Shown here piece by piece: positions 48,676 to 58,396 of a stretch of DNA of 64,000 bases. A model generated the notes under the pieces. That model saw only the letters and a program-made list of their open reading frames with translations, did no database searches and had not been told where the DNA came from. Within the stretch, counting starts at the first letter, position 1. The number at the start of each line of letters is the position of its first letter. This DNA is from Prochlorococcaceae cyanobacterium jk18x1bzbins.87 (GTDB lineage: Bacteria; Cyanobacteriota; Cyanobacteriia; PCC-6307; Cyanobiaceae): assembly GCA_022826535.1 (NCBI GenBank), contig JAJDUS010000129.1:1-64000 (forward strand), written 5' to 3'. The position numbers were made by a program, and so were the translations under genes.

Positions 48676-49392
48676 TCAGACATGTCCTAAAAGAGATGCA
48701 GCTTGTTGCTTCAGCCACTGTTTGTGCTCTTCATAGGCGCCATCATGGCGACCGACTAACCGCCAGAAGCCTTTGGAGTGGTTGGGGTGGACGAGATGGC
48801 ATAGCTCATGGATCACCACGTAGTTCGCGATGGCATGGGGCGCCTTGATGATGTTCCAGTTGAACACCAGATGCCCTTTTTTGTTGCAGGATCCCCAGCG
48901 TGATTTGAAATTGCGAACACTCATGCCCGTTGGCGTCACCCCGATCTGCTGGGCGTAGCGGTTGGTCTTTTCGCGCAGGTGTTCCAATGCCCTGGAGCAA
49001 TACCAGTTTTGCAGGTACTGCTGGATTCTTTGCTGCCGCTGCGCCCCTTTCTCCTTGGGGCGCACCGTTGCCCTGAGGTATCCCCCGACAAGGCGCACGC
49101 CCACCTGATGCCCCTCCTGCACTTTGAGGCGGTAGTTGCGCCCCAGATAGGGGAATGCCTCCCCACTGACCAGTTCCCTGGGGCGGTGGGGTGGGACCCG
49201 CTGCAATTCAGCCACCTTGGACCTGATCCAGGAGCGCTTTTGCCTGAGGATCGCTGCCACCCGCCCATCCTCCAGGTGTTCAGGTACCCGCACCTGAAGA
49301 TCACTACCGACGATGTGAAGGGCAGCGGTTCGTCTCATGGAGCGGACCACTTCCACCTGCAGACCCAGCACCTCTTCCGGGATGGCAGTCAT
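48676..49392 (-). CDS. YgjP-like (M48/DUF45-type) zinc metallopeptidase
   Basis: 238 aa; NYVVIHELCHLVHPNHSKGFW HExxH motif, FKSRWGSCNKKGHLVFNW. Confidence 0.88.
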   Translation of the reverse strand: MTAIPEEVLGLQVEVVRSMRRTAALHIVGSDLQVRVPEHLEDGRVAAILRQKRSWIRSKVAELQRVPPHRPRELVSGEAFPYLGRNYRLKVQEGHQVGVRLVGGYLRATVRPKEKGAQRQQRIQQYLQNWYCSRALEHLREKTNRYAQQIGVTPTGMSVRNFKSRWGSCNKKGHLVFNWNIIKAPHAIANYVVIHELCHLVHPNHSKGFWRLVGRHDGAYEEHKQWLKQQAASLLGHV

Positions 49393-52361
49393 TGAAACCT
49401 GACCTTGGCGAGATCCATGAACCGCTCCGTGACGGCCTTCACCAAGGCTTTGTCGCCAAAGGGTTGGCCAAGGATGGATCGCTTGATCTGAAGCTCGATG
49501 CGGAGGACCTCATCCCACTTGTCGAAGAACCCGACGATCCGGGTTGCTTCCTGGAGATCGGCAACCAGTTTCTGGTTCAGATCCAGCACCCTCTGGTGGG
49601 TCTCCTCATCCATTGCATCATCACCTGTTGCCGTTGTGACCTCTGCCATCAAGACCCTGTAGAAAGCCCCTTCTTCTTCGCTGAGTCCCAGGTCAGCATC
49701 CTGCCGGGCCTTCTCTTGCTCCATCCCGTCACGGAATAGCAGCAGTTGCTGGAGCAGTTCCCCCCAGCGGTTCTCGTACTTCTGGATGATTTCCTCCAGT
49801 CGTTTGGAAAGGGTTTGGTAGTACTCAGGATCCTCATCCAGCTTGACCTTGATGTGCGCCCTGATGGCGTGTTCCACCTCAGACGCCTTGGCCCGGTCGT
49901 TGGTGTGGGCGGCAAGTACCTGCTCAAACTCCACGTCAAAGAGTTTGGTGGGCGGGATGCGGGGATCAACGCCGGTGGCACGCACATGGTCTTCAATGAG
50001 GGCGCGCACCTTTTTCCCACACCCGACGATGTCCAACTGCTCGTCCCGATAGCGGTTGCGGCACCCGATGACCACCTTGCCCAATGCCTTGAGATCAGCA
50101 AGGAACGGGGTGGCGGCGGGATCTGGGAGGACAATCTCCATCTGCCTGGCAAAAGTTCTGAAATCCGCCTCAAATTGCTGGCGTTTCAGTTCATCCGCCA
50201 GCCTGGTGATGCAAGCATCGGTGTCCTGGAGGTTTACGCCCCTCAGGTGCTGCTTGGCCCTGGTGTGGGCTGCCTGAAGTTTGGGGATTTCGTCCTTGAG
50301 ATCTTTGAGGGCGCCCTGGACATCGGTGGATGAGAAAACCTGCAACGCCTCTGCCAGGTAGTCGGTGAGGCCGAAGTAATCAACGATGTACCCGCTGAAC
50401 TTGTTTGCCCTGGTGCGGTTCACCCGGGCGATGGCTTGCAGCAGGCTGTGGTCCGTCAGTTTGCGGTCCAGGTACATGACCTGACAGACGGGGGCATCAA
50501 ATCCGGTCAGCAGCATGTCCTTGACGATCAAGATGGAGAGGGGGTGTTCCCCCATGGGCTTCTTGAAGTGTTCCACCGTCGCCTTATGGTCAGCAGGGTT
50601 GGCCCATCGCGCAAGGTGGGGCGGGTCGTTGTGCTTGCCCGAGATCACCACTGCCGAGGCAGGAGCATCGGGAATGGCATCCAGTTTCTGCTTGTAGGTG
50701 ACCGCTGCTGCCCTGCTGGCAGTGACCACCATGGCCTTGAACCCATTGGGGAGGATATGGGTTCGGTAGTGCTCCACCAGATCCTGAGCCACCCATGCAA
50801 TCCGTTGGGGCGCCTCCAGCACGGCCCGTTCTGTCCCGTATTTCCTCTTGATGGCCTCCTTCTCCTCTGGCGTCTTGTCCTGAAAGTAGCGATCAAAGAG
50901 GGCATCCAGGGAGTCCCCCGTCACTTTGGTGTGGGCCTCCCGTCCTTCATAGAGGATTTGGACTGTGGCGCCGTCAGCAACGGCCTGCTCAATGGTGTAG
51001 GTGTCGATATAGGCGCCGAACTCGCCGGTGGTCTTCCGGGATGTAATCAGGGGTGTGCCGGTGAACGCGATCTTGGGGGCATTGGGCAGGGCGGCATTGA
51101 TGGCGGCCCCCAAAGTGCCGTATTGGGTGCGGTGGGCCTCATCCGCCAGAACGATGATCCGCTCGGAAGCATTGAGACAGGCAAATCCCAGGTTGTCTCC
51201 TTCCTGGAGTTTCTGGATGGTGGCGGTCACCAGATCCGAGGCATCCCTGGCCAGCAATTCCTTGAGATGGCTGACCGACGAGGCATGAAGGACGCTTTCT
51301 CCTTGCGCCCGTCTGAACGTGGCCGTCAGTTGCTGATCCAGTTGGGTGCGGTCCGTGAGGAAGACAAGTTTGCAGTCCCGCAACGCAGGATCCCGCCTGA
51401 TCTTCCGGGTGAGGAACACCATGGTGAGGGACTTCCCTGATCCCTGGGTATGCCAGATGACGCCCCCCTTGCTCCTGCGATCCCCCGGCGCCTTGAGGCG
51501 GGCCACGGTCTTCTGAACCGCCCTGAACTGCTGATACCGGGCCACCTTCTTGACGGTGCGGCCGCCTTCGGTTTCAAAGACGGTGAAATTCCGGATCAGG
51601 TCCAGAAACGTCTTCGGGGCGAGCAACCCTTGAATCAAAACCTGCTGGCCAGTTGGGGCATCCCCCAACTCCTTCCGATCCAGTGGATAGGGATCTTTCC
51701 ATTCCAGGTAGTGCTCAACGGATGAGGAAATGGTGCCAAACCGTGCTCCATCCCGATGGGTGGAGATCATTACCTGGTTGTAGTGGAAGAGTTTTTCGCA
51801 GCCTTCCATGTCGCCTGGATTGCGCAGGTTGGCGTAGCGGCGCAGTTGGCTGATGCCCTCCGCCATGGGATTGGTGACGAAGGGAGACTTGCACTCCATC
51901 ACTGCCAACGGCAACCCATTCACAAAAAGGGTGATGTCGGGAATGATGGTCTGGGCCGGGCCTTGAACCTTGAGCTGGTCAACGCAAAGGAACTCGTTGT
52001 TCTCTGGGGTGTCAAAGTCAATGAGTTTGACCGTCTGCCCACGGCGACCACTGCCCAGATCCTGATCAACACTGAAGTATTGGGTGAGACGTTCCCAGAG
52101 CTGTTGATTTGCCTCCATTAACGTGGGGGTTTGGATCAAAGTGACTTCACGGACCACCTTGCGGAGGTTTTCCTCACTGATCCAGGGATTGATGCATTGG
52201 ATGGCCTGCTCCAGATTGGGGATCAGCACCACGTCTCTGAGGGTTGAGCGGTGGTTGCTCTGCTCTGGCACAAGCGTGGCGCCATCCAGATGAATCCATC
52301 CCAGGCCCTTGAGTTGCTCAAGGGCAGGCGCTTCTACAAATTGGCGCTCGTCGCTTGTCAT
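49389..52361 (-). CDS. hsdR: Type I restriction endonuclease subunit R
   Basis: 990 aa; VMECKSP nuclease motif, WHTQGSGKSLTMVFLTRKI, DEAHRTQYG, IAFTGTPL. Confidence 0.95.
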   Translation of the reverse strand: MTSDERQFVEAPALEQLKGLGWIHLDGATLVPEQSNHRSTLRDVVLIPNLEQAIQCINPWISEENLRKVVREVTLIQTPTLMEANQQLWERLTQYFSVDQDLGSGRRGQTVKLIDFDTPENNEFLCVDQLKVQGPAQTIIPDITLFVNGLPLAVMECKSPFVTNPMAEGISQLRRYANLRNPGDMEGCEKLFHYNQVMISTHRDGARFGTISSSVEHYLEWKDPYPLDRKELGDAPTGQQVLIQGLLAPKTFLDLIRNFTVFETEGGRTVKKVARYQQFRAVQKTVARLKAPGDRRSKGGVIWHTQGSGKSLTMVFLTRKIRRDPALRDCKLVFLTDRTQLDQQLTATFRRAQGESVLHASSVSHLKELLARDASDLVTATIQKLQEGDNLGFACLNASERIIVLADEAHRTQYGTLGAAINAALPNAPKIAFTGTPLITSRKTTGEFGAYIDTYTIEQAVADGATVQILYEGREAHTKVTGDSLDALFDRYFQDKTPEEKEAIKRKYGTERAVLEAPQRIAWVAQDLVEHYRTHILPNGFKAMVVTASRAAAVTYKQKLDAIPDAPASAVVISGKHNDPPHLARWANPADHKATVEHFKKPMGEHPLSILIVKDMLLTGFDAPVCQVMYLDRKLTDHSLLQAIARVNRTRANKFSGYIVDYFGLTDYLAEALQVFSSTDVQGALKDLKDEIPKLQAAHTRAKQHLRGVNLQDTDACITRLADELKRQQFEADFRTFARQMEIVLPDPAATPFLADLKALGKVVIGCRNRYRDEQLDIVGCGKKVRALIEDHVRATGVDPRIPPTKLFDVEFEQVLAAHTNDRAKASEVEHAIRAHIKVKLDEDPEYYQTLSKRLEEIIQKYENRWGELLQQLLLFRDGMEQEKARQDADLGLSEEEGAFYRVLMAEVTTATGDDAMDEETHQRVLDLNQKLVADLQEATRIVGFFDKWDEVLRIELQIKRSILGQPFGDKALVKAVTERFMDLAKVRFQ

Positions 52362-52364
52362 GGT

Positions 52365-53510
52365 TTAGATGGCGACCCGCTTGCGGCCGGAGAGGAGGTC
52401 AGATGAAAGTCCAGATCTGAGAATTTTAAGGGACTCTATTTCAGAGACCTCTGCATCAATTGCCCTTGCGACGCTTTCGGAAAGTGTAGATATTTTTCTT
52501 TGTGTCTCTATTGCTACAAATGGTACCTTGTAATTCTGTAATTGTATTGTGTCTATACTCTCAACTGTTGTACCACTTTTCATGCATGATGAAAGAATAT
52601 CAGAGGATCGCCCCTTGAGAAAGTAAAGCAGAAAACTCGGATCCCATTCACTGTTTGGAGTCAATGCCTTGAGATCTTGATTGATGGCAACATCTTTTGT
52701 TGTGATTGAGATAGGTAGTGTGTGGCGTAAGATGCCACTTCTCGTAACGAAGAGAATTGAATTGGCTGGAATTAGTGAGGTTGGTGAATTTTGAAGCGCT
52801 GACTCGCTTATTTGGTCTTGAGAACTGACAATCTTGTCGCTTTTCATATCTTTTGGTGAGATCCATGGAATTGTTCCATTCCAAAATTCGGACCTCATCT
52901 TAGATGGTGTTCCTCCTCCTTTCCATTTTCCAATTAGTCTTAATGGCACTGTTTCTACAGATAATTGTTGTCTGATTGCATCTTCTATAAGAAATCTTAG
53001 TGTCATCTGCTTTTTTTCAATCCTTCGCGTCTTGACCGCAAGCAGATTATCAGTCCCCGAAAGTATCTCGGCGATCTTTTTTTGCTCGGGGAGCGGGGGA
53101 AGTGGGATTTTTAAGTCCTCAAGAAATTCTCTGGATAAGTGGGGAACACCAGTCCCTTCAGCAGAATTCCTCAAATCTTTTTGCTTACTGGAGATAAAGT
53201 GATAAAGATATTTGGCATCTACATCTTCGTCTGCGCTGCTTAAAGATGCGAGTGTTGAGCCTAAATACCCCTGATGACCAGTGCTTGAGAGGCCGCACCT
53301 TTCACCGTCCCAAACTAGTAGGATGTCTTCTTCATTTACATATTTACATGATTGATCGTCAGTGAAAAATCTATATTGTCTATTAAAGGATTCAATGAGA
53401 AGATAAGGTTTATCCTTCTCACTCTGCTGATGATCTCTTATTATCGCTGGTTTTTTACCCTTGGCGATACAAATCAATTCTCTAAGAGGTACTCGCTTTA
53501 TTTCACTCAT
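52365..53510 (-). CDS. hsdS: Type I specificity subunit S
   Basis: 381 aa; two TRD-like regions and central [32 protein letters not shown]. Confidence 0.93.
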
Positions 53511-55494
53511 ACCCCAACTCCCTCAAAAACCCGTGCATCACGGCTTCCGCCTCTTTGGCCTCAGCATCAATCCGAGCCAATGAAACCCCGTATTTGTCCC
53601 ACCACCGTTCCACTTGCTGAATCACGGCGTCAGATGCATTCCCCAGGTGTTGGCGAATCTGGGATTTTTCTTTGATGTGGTCCCTGAATTTGAGATATTC
53701 GGCATCTTTGGGAGCCAGCACAGCACCCACGTCAAAGCCATCAAGAATCTCCTGGATGTAGTCATCCTCAATTTCTGTGATGGGCACCCCGCTGTGGAGA
53801 ATGCCCCGTACGTCAAAGGGTTCTGGCGGGGGCGAGGTGTCGGCATAGCGACGGATGCTGAGATTGTGGTCATTTTCTCGAATCTCCTCCAAGGGCACCA
53901 CCTGTGAGAACCGCTTGATTGCATTATTGGCATTAAAGCACCCAATGACTTTCTCAACGTCTTGACCCCTCAGAGTATTCCGCTTCTTCCCGCGACCTTT
54001 CTGGTAGCCCAATTCAGCGTTGATAAAGAGCACCTTGCCCCGCCGCTGCGAGGCCTTGGTCTTGTTAATGATTAGCAATACTGCGGCAATGTCGGTTCCA
54101 TAGAACAACTTAGGTGGCAAACCGATCACCGCTTCAATCAAATCGTCCTCAAGGATGCCTTTGCGGATTTCCCCCTCTGCGTCACCACGGAAGAGCACCC
54201 CATGGGGCACCACAACACCCATGACGCCCTTCTGGTTCATGGAGGCGATCATATGTTGAACAAATGCCATCTCTCCATAGTTTTGGGGCGGGATGCCAAA
54301 GCGATACCGTCCAAAGCCATCGTGCTTGGCAAGGTCATGGCCCCAGTTTTCCGGGGAGAAGGGGGGATTGGCGATTACCCGATCAAATCGCATCAATTCT
54401 CCCCCCTTCTGATGTTGCGGTTCCCCCAGGGTGTCGCCTTTTTTGATGTCTGCACTGAGCACCCCGTGGAGGAACATGTTGAGTTTGCAGATTGCCCAGG
54501 TGCCCAGGTTCCTTTCCTGGCCGAACAACTGCAAATTGGCCGGGTCCTCCCCATGGGTTGCCAGGTGGTTCCTGGTTTGGATCAGCATTCCCCCGGAGCC
54601 GCAGGTGGGGTCATACACCGTCATCCCGGCATGGGGTTTCAACAGGGCCACCAGAAGTTTCACCACTTCGCTGGGAGTGTAAAACTCACCCCCTTTCTTC
54701 CCCGCCGAGTCGGCAAACATCTTGATGAGATACTCGTAGGCGGCCCCCAAAAGATCAGGACGTTCAAAGTCTTCATTGTGCAGCCGGAAGGTGGAGTAGT
54801 GGGAGAGCAGGTCCCTGAGTTTGCGGTCATCGAGTTTGTTCTTGATGTTGAAGTCAATGGAGACCAGCACCCCCTCCAAGGTGGGGTTGTGCTCCTCAAT
54901 GGCTTCGGTGGCCTTGTTCAGTTCTGCGCCGATGTCGTGCTTGAGGCCCTTGAGGTTGCCCCACCGCGCCCGCTCCGGAACGTAGAACGTCCTGTGGTAC
55001 TCGTCTTCATCGTTTGCCAGGTTCTCTGCTTCGGAGCGGGTTTTACCACTGTCCTGGTAGTGCTTGACCACCCCTTCCCTCGCCTCCTCAAAGGCATCGG
55101 AAAGGCGTTTCAGGAACAGCATTCCGAAGATGTAGTCCTTGAATTCCGAAGCATCCATGCTCCCCCGCAGGATGTCCGCGCTTTTCCAGAGGAACGACTC
55201 CAGTTGGGAGAGGGTCAATTTCTGCCCAATCCGGAAGGCGGGTTCTGGAGTCGCAGCGACAATCCTACGCTGCCCCACTGAAGGCCTGCGCCCATTCCTG
55301 GCAGGAGCAGCGGGCGCCTCGTAGCGGCTGCCCCCCTCAGTGCCCTCCGCCAGGGCGATGGAACCACCACGCCCCCTGCCCTTCTTCACGGTGCCATGCC
55401 GCAGCACCATGTCCCTGATGTATTCGTATTCCGCTTCGCTGATCTGCCGCTCTGCTGCCCTGCTGAGGGCCTCCCGTGCTGAGCGGTTCCCCAT
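53503..55494 (-). CDS. hsdM: Type I modification subunit M
   Basis: 663 aa; [47 protein letters not shown]. Confidence 0.95.
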
Positions 55495-55714
55495 GGTGCT
55501 GCGGTCGGGTGGCAGGACATCAATCAGCAGGTCCCCCAGTTCTGTGGCGTTCGTTGTGGCTGCTGAGTCGATGATGGGGACCGGGTGCCAATCTTGGCCT
55601 CTACTTTACCAGCCCCAGCGTGATCGTCCACCCTGCATAGATGACTGACATGGCAAAGTGCCATGCACTTCTTCATTATTCCCACTTCCATCTCCCCAGC
55701 CTGATGCCCCCAGA

Positions 55715-55870
55715 ACCCGGCTTGAGCCGCCATTGAAGAGGCGGCGGCACCCCACCGATCTGGCCGGGGCGTTGGCGTTGGCATTTGGGCTTGCCCCTGG
55801 TGGCGGTGAGGGCATCCGCCGGCAAAACCACGACGGGAGACTGGGAACCAGCCTGCTGTGATGACGGACC
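55715..55870 (+). pseudogene. Decayed murF fragment (partial duplication of the downstream murF)
   Basis: 55785 frame reads GLPLVAVRASAGKTTTGD versus Mur[22 protein letters not shown] ggcttgcccctggtggcRgtga similarity to about 57215-57400 with an internal deletion. Confidence 0.75.
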
Positions 55871-56025
55871 CAAAAGGGCTGGAGCACCCGGACCGCAGTT
55901 GTGCATTGGTGTAACGGTTCCATCAGCGACCTGGATCCGTGACCTAGACCTATGGCGGGTACCTTGCGAGAAGCGCCGGACTACCACCTCACCCCCGCTT
56001 CGTCCCAAGCTCCCGGACCCAGGCC

Positions 56026-56054
56026 TTGACTTCTCTGGGTCAATCGGGTACAAT
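56026..56054 (+). promoter_or_regulatory. Sigma70-type promoter
   Basis: TTGACT (56026-56031) - 17 bp - TACAAT (56049-56054). Confidence 0.6.
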
Positions 56055-56060
56055 AATTAT

Positions 56061-56125
56061 GAGACGCAGGCCTTTCAGGGCTTGCCCTCTTTCCGAGGCC
56101 CGCGTTCTGGCGCGGGCTTTCGTGT
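56061..56125 (+). ncRNA. Candidate structured leader RNA upstream of a DUF3800 gene
   Basis: Two hairpins AGGG-CTTG-CCCT (56077-56088) and GCCCGCG-TTCTGG-CGCGGGC (56098-56117) followed by TTTCG, between a promoter and the DUF3800 start. Confidence 0.5.
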
Positions 56126-56142
56126 TCTCTGCAGGCCCACCT

Positions 56143-56929
56143 GTGACCTACTTCGCCTACCTGGACGAATTTGGCCACATTGGTCCCTACATCAGCCGGC
56201 AAGACAGCAAACACAATGACAGTCCGGTGTTTGGCCTGGCGGGTTTCATCTTGCCCTCCGAACGGGTACGCGGGTTTGGTACCTGGTTCTTTCAACGTAA
56301 ATGTGAGCTTCTCTCATACGAGATTAAAAGCTCTAAGAAGCATCCGGCCCAGTGGGAAAAGAAGGGGTCCAGCCTTTACACAGTCGGGAATGTCCGCAAG
56401 TACCCAGAACTCAGGCACTTCACAGATCGCCTGCTCAACAAAATCAGAGATCTCGGCGGCTTGGTCTTCTATGTTGGAATTCGAAAGACCAAGCCGCCAG
56501 ATGCCCATAACCCAAATAACCTCCAGCAAGCGATCCTTCGCGAAGCAATGAAGCGGATTGACCAATTCTGCAAAGATGATTGCCTGCCATCCGACAATTT
56601 CGTTCTGATTCTCGATGACCATGATCAACGCCCAGAACTGATCACCAGGGCCTCGCAAAACATGTATGGGGGTGAGGAACCAAAGGCTCGTCTTATCGAG
56701 CCGCCGTTCCATCTGGAAAGCCACCGCTATCAAGACACTGCAAGCAGCGGATTGGATTGCCGGATTGGTAGGGCGCCTGGGGGCTTATTGGGCTGATCCG
56801 ACGACTTACTCCGACAACCAGGTGTTCCATCAGTACTTCGAGAATCGCCTCAAGCAGGTCAGCATCCGCAGTAGCGTGCGGATGCAGGATGCTGCCAGGG
56901 GTGCCGAAAAATTCCTTCCCCTCACCTGA
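56143..56929 (+). pseudogene. DUF3800 domain protein interrupted by a frameshift near 56730-56745 (GTG start at 56143)
   Basis: MTYFAYLDEFGHIG N-terminus and VLILDDHDQRPELI in one frame; TLQAADWIAGLVGRLGAYW continues in the 56666-56929 frame. Confidence 0.75.
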
Positions 56930-57019
56930 AAACGCTTGGCAGAACGCTTGGCAGTAGGCAACGTAGCGCCTGGCCACCCGTGCCCCGGCTCGTTACCGTG
57001 GGGAAGGTATTGATGGATC

Positions 57020-58396
57020 GTGCCCTGTTCCTTCTCCCCAGCAGACTGCGGCCGGATTCTGGGCTGCTCCATCTCCTCTGCCCCCTTGTCCCAGCGTCCC
57101 AGCCGCGGCATCAACACCGATAGCCGCCAGTTGCTGGTGGGGGAAATCTTCCTGGCCCTCCGTGGCGAAAGCTTTGATGGACACCATTACCTACCCGAGG
57201 CGGCAGCACGAGGGGCTTGCGCCGCCATTGTGGAAGCCACGGCGGCGCCCCGCCAGCCGCCCCTGCCCTTGCTGCCGGTGGCCAACACCCATCGGGCCTA
57301 TCAGGATCTGGCCCGAGCCTGGCGGCGGCAGTTGGGCTTGCCCCTGGTGGCAGTGACGGGATCCGCGGGCAAAACCACGACACGAGAACTGATTAAAGCC
57401 CTGCTGGCCCCCTTGGGCGCCATTCATGCCAGCCAGGGGAATGAAAACAATGCCGTTGGCGTCCCCCGCACCATCCTGGGGGCGGATAAAGCCGTGGTGG
57501 CCATGGTGGTGGAGATGGCCATGCGGGGGCCGGGAGAAATCGCTGAGTTGAGCCGTTGCGCAGAACCGGATCTGGTGGTGATCACCAACATCGGTTCAGC
57601 CCACATCGGTCGCCTGGGCAGCCGCGAGGCCATTGCCGCAGCCAAATGTGAAATCACCACAGCCCTGGCCAGCACAGGGGTGGTGGTGATCCCAGCCGGG
57701 GATCGCCTGTTGGAAGCCAGCCTGGCGGCCCGTTGGCATGGTGCGGTCCATCGTGTGGCCCTGGAGGATGACCCCTTACCTTCCCACCTCCCCCTAGCAG
57801 ACCGGTGTGGCCAACTGAAAGGCAATGCATTGCACTTTGGGGGGCGCCGCTGGCATTTGCCCCTGCCGGGGACCCACCAGGCCCGTAACCTGATGCTGGC
57901 CCTGGCTTGTGCCCAGCATCTGGGCGTAACACCCGAGAACCATCACCTGGCCCAGGTGCGACTCCCGGGAGGACGGGCCCGTCAACTGATGGTGGGCTCC
58001 ATCACCATCTGGGACGAGACCTACAACGCTTCCCCTGAAGCTGTGATGGCCACCACAGATATGGTGGCTGAACAACAGGGGCGCCACTTTGCCGTGTTGG
58101 GTCCCATGTTGGAACTGGGCTCCTTCGCCATGGCCTGGCATCAGCGCATTGGGGAACATGTGGGCCGGCGGGGCTTTGATGGGCTGGTGGTGGTGGACGA
58201 CGGTCCCCTTGGAAATGCTCTGGCGGCTGGTGCGGGCCAGGGGTTGCCGGTGGTGCAGGTGGATGAACCTCAGGCAGCCCTCAGTCATTTGCTGGCATGG
58301 CTGAAGCCCGGTGATCATTTGCTGCTGAAGGCCAGTCGCGGTGTCGTTTTGGAACGCCTCATTCCCCTCCTGCAAGCCTGGCTGAACAGGATTTAG
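57020..58396 (+). CDS. murF: UDP-N-acetylmuramoyl-tripeptide--D-alanyl-D-alanine ligase
   Basis: 458 aa; [42 protein letters not shown]. Confidence 0.94.

Follow-up and report, generated by a model that had tools for sequence, protein, structure and literature searches.

A conserved, covarying two-hairpin leader RNA associated with DUF3800 genes

The DUF3800 gene in the window, i.e., the whole stretch of 64,000 nucleotides analysed here, is preceded by a leader (56061-56131, just 3' of a sigma-70-like promoter) that represents, in our opinion almost certainly, a real, conserved and covarying RNA class strongly associated with a branch of DUF3800 proteins modelled as RNase-HII-like. The conserved unit is formed by the promoter, a two-hairpin RNA of about 70 nt, a ribosome-binding site and the DUF3800 gene. 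The candidate structured RNA proposed in an initial annotation, which was to be given up if its hairpins were neither conserved nor covarying upstream of homologues, turned out to be conserved there and to carry compensatory changes. It can therefore be counted among the DUF3800-associated structured RNAs in the general sense, being conserved, covarying and found with DUF3800 genes. DUF3800 proteins are encoded on plasmids, within prophages and next to certain CRISPR effectors, and they have for years been associated with orphan RNAs while a function has been lacking. Since the class is compact (about 70 nt), shares a transcript with its gene and has an RNase-HII-like partner by prediction, the question can be put to a direct test; cultivable carriers are Pseudomonas, Sulfitobacter, the Aeromonas phage phiO18P and Rhodococcus.

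Structure and conservation of the leader

The features of the unit in the window are collected in Table 1. The promoter, the second hairpin (GCCCGCG-TTCTGG-CGCGGGC-TTTCG) and the GTG start had been placed correctly in the initial annotation, which also recognized that the leader has two hairpins; its first hairpin, however, is not the 4-bp AGGG/CCCT stem described there but a longer stem in another register, closed by GAG/CUC and with GCAGGCCU/AGGGCUUGC as its upper part. One promoter-like site was found within 55500-57100, where shuffling predicts 0.6, and the position of this promoter makes the 5' G of SL1 the likely transcription start. SL2 has a conserved G.U pair and a bulged pyrimidine. 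The 65-nt RNA of the window folds with -35 kcal/mol (z = -3.7, with none of 200 shuffles equally stable), and the leaders of five divergent relatives give z-values from -3.5 to -4.4, the same two hairpins being the best fold in four of the five; in the relative L082, SL2 is kept in the best fold and SL1 is folded differently. It is the comparative evidence, and not the fold in the window alone, that places the leader beyond chance.

Table 1. Features of the DUF3800 unit, in positions of the window
Feature	Positions	Strand	Basis
Sigma-70-like promoter, TTGACT-17-TACAAT	56026..56054	+	sole promoter-like match in region
-35 box TTGACT; 17-nt spacer; -10 box TACAAT	56026-56031; 56049-56054	+	
Hairpin SL1, GAG-(AC)-GCAGGCCU....AGGGCUUGC-(C)-CUC	56061..56089	+	fold and tree-aware compensatory events
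Linker UUUC, opening the near-invariant UUCCGRGRCC motif	56090..56093	+	alignments
Hairpin SL2, CGAGGCCCGCG-UUCU-GGCGCGGGCUUUCG	56094..56122	+	fold and compensatory events
Conserved tail, consensus YGUWUC	within 56123..56142	+	alignment
Weak ribosome-binding site GCAGG (consensus UGGAGG)	within 56123..56142	+	alignment
DUF3800 gene, GTG start at 56143, frame break near 56731-56737	56143..56796	+	Pfam PF12686, E 1.1e-9
Rest of the DUF3800 C-terminus in another frame (KTLQAADWIAGLVGRLGAYW...)	56733..56929	+	three-frame translation

A protein search with one genome per species gave 36 homologues, mostly from metagenome-assembled genomes, in Cyanobacteria, several classes of Proteobacteria, Acidobacteria, Gemmatimonadetes, Nitrospinota, Binatia and Rhodothermales. 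Every complete homologue from this search has the leader immediately upstream, and so do plasmid and phage homologues. The consensus runs TTGAC-17-TATNNT, about 5 nt, GAGRCGCAA...TTGCCCTCTTTCCGAGGCCCGCG...CGCGGGCTTTCGYGTWTCTGGAGG and then the start codon, with UUCCGRG and UUUCG as near-invariant elements. A covariance model (R1) built solely from 32 leaders of close relatives found the leader in nearly all other loci with E from about 1e-15 to 0.05, even where the proteins are only 31-47% identical; its match was not significant at two loci with very distant homologues (L068 and L069). Altogether, the leader-bearing homologues, actinobacterial ones among them, have protein identities of 31-73% and come from about ten phyla, plasmids and phages. 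Among the 76 leaders having enough upstream DNA, 60 show an exact TTGAC, the most frequent distance from the end of the -10 box to the RNA model is 5 nt, and the promoter match averages 8.9 of 12 positions versus 6.6 for shuffled sequences. At intact loci, the RNA always ends at the ribosome-binding site and has the same orientation as the gene.

The covariation of both hairpins was evaluated in several ways with scripts of our own, which are R-scape-like and not R-scape itself. In a MAFFT alignment, the two-hairpin score was 0.240 versus 0.130 after shuffling, and none of 500 shuffles was as high. In 58 model-aligned sequences, an alignment that leans to its model, the first structure (the same upper hairpins plus a long-range helix) had 96% of its cells paired and scored 0.426 versus 0.204, with slid controls at or below 0.117. 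Since shuffles ignore kinship, a tree-aware test was built on a FastTree tree of 77 leaders, aligned without the covariance model. Compensatory events numbered 4 in the basal stem of SL1 (null mean 0.3), 11 in its upper stem (null mean 1.7) and 18 in SL2 (null mean 0.9), none of the 300 null runs reaching the observed number in any of the three; SL2 is paired in 98.9% of the cells of the 77 sequences. When all column pairs were scanned, the six top pairs all belonged to the two hairpins, and two of the six had E < 0.01. The covariation check on homologues' upstream regions that the initial annotation had suggested thus came out in favour of SL1 and SL2 alike. Two other pairings were discarded: the long-range helix that would pair the 5' end with the tail (proposed by RNAalifold; structures S and X), which scored well by shuffling alone and has 1 compensatory event on the tree versus 0.6 expected, and an alternative CCUC/GAGG hairpin, which is without covariation.

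The association was also approached by searching with the RNA rather than the protein, which avoids circularity. Three pattern scans covered 2.9 million viral contigs and yielded 15 different matches, of which 14 are directly upstream of DUF3800, some of the contigs being near-copies. The remaining match (L148:7111-7144) is a leader-like sequence with a plausible SL1 (GGACGC..GTGCTCC) in a contig that lacks DUF3800 over 1 kb around it. When 289 alphaproteobacterial genomes were searched with the covariance model, seven further places emerged. Three of them have DUF3800; three others, in near-identical genomes, keep an intact leader and the opening codons of the gene, the rest of which is gone; and one (L130) is a false positive, a terminator next to a tRNA. 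The search of 292 genomes from the phylum of the window gave matches in the window's own genome alone; therefore, the unit is sporadic in this phylum and was probably acquired horizontally.

The DUF3800 protein and the fate of its gene

The open reading frame after the leader was rightly assigned to DUF3800: it scores 39.5 bits against PF12686, over the Pfam cut-off of 21 bits, and its homologues reach 56-63 bits. The earlier reading missed a 1-base frameshift near 56731-56737, evident by comparison with uninterrupted homologues, which carry ESHRYQTLQAADWIAGLVGRLGA unbroken, whereas the window continues the same sequence in another frame. The genome (2.49 Mb in 145 contigs), whose nearest relatives, judged by locus titles, are sponge-associated Synechococcus-like bacteria, has a second, decayed leader at C100:13607 (L074), with a promoter-like sequence and without DUF3800. 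As the gene is frameshifted and the second RNA copy has no gene, the module is probably dead in this genome. Around the unit, an 84-bp stretch 5' of the leader (55757-55840) is 84.5% identical to 57305-57387 within a murF-like gene that is intact at 57020-58396, so that the unit lies between a murF fragment and murF; the fragment is perhaps a trace of the insertion of the unit. A complete-looking type I restriction system (HsdM, HsdS, HsdR; 49389-55494, minus strand) is divergent from the unit.

An RNase H fold for DUF3800 has been reported earlier, and other DUF3800 proteins accompany Cas12 and Cas13 loci (PMC10910872, PMC12669027). In our AlphaFold2 model (34-sequence alignment, pLDDT 90.5, pTM 0.90), the predicted fold is closest to that of RNase HII, at a distance: the best 15 PDB matches of Foldseek are all RNase HII, HIII or H2, the first being 1eke (RNase HII; E 5.5e-4, probability 1.00), with TM-scores of 0.33-0.46, which mean distant likeness. 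Invariance is seen in YLDEFGH close to the N-terminus, in WE-KG, at Asp 157 and in QxADW (198-202), and the acidic order D-E...D...D of these residues would resemble the active site of RNase HII. The sequence search with this protein found no solved structure, and NCBIfam has no model for it.

The loci share no flanking DNA beyond close pairs, which disposes of a mobile element with conserved ends, and no neighbour gene is constant among them, most neighbours being metabolic. From its distribution, the unit appears to move alone between phyla, without shared flanks, and to settle at cargo sites of plasmids and prophages. It accompanies one other open reading frame on a 4.7-kb plasmid, lies between parB and kfrB on a Pseudomonas plasmid, is flanked by tail genes in a prophage carried by a Providencia plasmid, and adjoins the portal gene in phage phiO18P. 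Neighbours of defence type are TIR and caspase-family genes, McrBC and, in the window, the type I restriction system; none of the PADLOC models of known anti-phage defence systems matches the DUF3800 protein.

At 84 leader places, the gene is intact in about 55, has a frameshift, stop or deletion in about 20 and is absent in about 8, these counts being approximate, corrected by eye and taken in many cases from metagenome assemblies. The RNA fold is mostly kept where the gene is broken or absent. Deletions often begin a few codons past the leader (L115, L117b, L119, L120, L036 and L040). At L036 (around 3001) and L040 (around 1501), the leader is intact and DUF3800 residues from about 5 to 107 are gone; the ends of the L036 deletion share the short repeat GTGATCTACGT, which suggests recombination between repeats inside the gene. 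One locus (L027:2275-2988) carries three leaders spaced by 320 nt; a promoter-like sequence accompanies each of them, and only the last precedes DUF3800. In its first two copies, the RNA is no more conserved than the spacer, and we therefore make no claim of selection on gene-less copies. In L126-L128 (around 1501-1660), the leader is followed by a few DUF3800 codons and then by a strong inverted repeat, CCGGGAGTGCTGC...GCAGCACTCCCGG, and it looks like a stand-alone small RNA gene remaining after gene loss; since these genomes are 96% identical at the leader locus, they do not demonstrate selection without the gene. The orphan RNAs may be mere relics. The whole pattern of gene loss looks like that of a costly or toxic gene, and equally like that of any mobile cargo gene.

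Possible functions of the leader

We think, with about even confidence, that the leader is a partner RNA of an RNase-HII-like nuclease in a toxin-antitoxin- or defence-like system, a pairing that the initial annotation had offered as a possibility, and we prefer this reading over a pure cis-regulator mainly because the RNAs found with DUF3800 proteins vary in kind and in position. Transcription would start at the first base of SL1, and the transcript would present the two hairpins, directly followed by the ribosome-binding site and the nuclease gene. The DUF3800 protein would then recognise the leader RNA, for which the invariant UUCCGRG and UUUCG elements and the bulged, G.U-containing base of SL2 would be the obvious contacts, and the RNA, released or bound, might restrain the nuclease or give it specificity, as in an RNA-antitoxin/toxin or defence module.

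A purely cis-acting autoregulatory leader, in which DUF3800 or another protein binds SL1/SL2 and blocks the ribosome with no role in trans, is a plausible competitor that we hold at somewhat less than even strength. It would readily account for an RNA that spans from the predicted transcription start to the ribosome-binding site, in the same orientation, at all intact loci. It accommodates less well the RNA-only units (the L027 copies, L074, L121 and L126) and a constraint on the sequence exceeding what simple translational repression would seem to need. Moreover, in the known DUF3800-VIII and -IX examples the RNA is encoded on the strand opposite the gene, and therefore DUF3800 proteins accompany RNAs that cannot be their leaders.

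The partner-RNA reading may be extended to the proposal that this branch of DUF3800 comprises RNase-HII-like nucleases that depend on an RNA, take it as cofactor or antitoxin from the 5' end of the mRNA encoding them and form a mobile maintenance or defence RNP. This would be a widespread module serving plasmid or prophage maintenance or phage defence; for the moment we regard the extension as tentative and rather unlikely to hold in full.

An attenuator, with SL2 as a partial intrinsic terminator that sets the level of DUF3800 mRNA, is compatible with a partner RNA. SL2 is listed by a terminator scan, and in type III toxin-antitoxin loci a terminator of this sort separates the RNA from the toxin; most homologues, however, are without a proper U-tract after the stem (UUUCGYGUWUC), and SL1 and the linker are as conserved as SL2, which makes this explanation improbable. 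We give still less credit to an RNA-guided nuclease with the leader as a scaffold bearing a guide, an idea that an RNase-H-fold protein beside a structured RNA and the other DUF3800 proteins at Cas12/Cas13 loci (PMC10910872, PMC12669027) might invite, since variation is limited to hairpin loops and paired positions and none of the 77 leaders has an unpaired hypervariable segment. That there is no RNA element, and only inherited similarity of recently transferred DNA, is hardly credible: horizontal transfer is evident from sponge-symbiont genomes of several phyla, but the compensatory events on the tree lie far over the null and the conservation extends between proteins 31% identical, which largely refutes it.

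Comparison with known RNA classes and systems

Rfam 15 contains several DUF3800-n families, of which DUF3800-I and -IX are named in PMC11701678. The initial annotation took the leader for a member or relative of these motifs, and this was not borne out as regards membership: in the window and at 37 related loci, all Rfam DUF3800 families stay below their gathering scores, no other Rfam family matches the leader at gathering score, and the one DUF3800 family to appear at all is DUF3800-VIII, a weak match of one leader with 15.1 bits versus a threshold of 40.2. The 2017 paper that reportedly named the DUF3800-n motifs may possibly include the leader class among motifs never entered in Rfam.

Neither did the known motifs lie upstream of DUF3800 genes, as had been assumed, at the loci inspected. 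DUF3800-VIII (RF03075) is, like the leader, a short structured RNA by a PF12686 gene with a small GC-rich hairpin, but it is 3' of the gene and on the opposite strand in both genomes inspected (L132 and L133), where the leader model finds nothing. The neighbouring gene in L133 is a PF12686 match, and that in L132 has an internal deletion and falls below the Pfam cut-off. DUF3800-IX (RF02968) resembles the leader in size and in being structured, and its neighbour is a DUF3800-like gene with an LDESGDPG motif; it differs in being 3' and on the opposite strand (L134), with its own promoter-like sequence and a U-run terminator, and it does not match the leader. In all three loci, the RNAs are convergent to the genes. 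A second DUF3800-IX match (L135) has no obvious adjacent DUF3800 open reading frame, the RF03075 search also matched a Bacillus subtilis control genome, and DUF3800-I had no match in the 249 genomes searched. The known classes thus look like separate small RNA genes and the new one like the first part of the DUF3800 transcript. As its position and strand depart from the arrangement in the few DUF3800-VIII and -IX examples compared, the leader is a new class of different arrangement, absent from Rfam 15.

On the protein side, RNase HII and RNase H2 are alike in the predicted fold and, apparently, in the N-terminal DE motif and the order of the acidic residues. They differ at the sequence level, where hhalign gives P 0.36 and Pfam assigns DUF3800 and not RNase_HII, so that the protein is not a member of the RNase HII sequence family PF01351.

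Type III toxin-antitoxin systems of the ToxIN kind differ from the unit by their ToxN fold, against an RNase-HII-like one here, by a canonical terminator, and by short tandem antitoxin repeats, against normally one leader copy here (L027 with its 320-nt period being the exception). The likeness lies in a structured RNA upstream of a nuclease gene under one promoter, predicted in our case, and in carriage by plasmids and phages.
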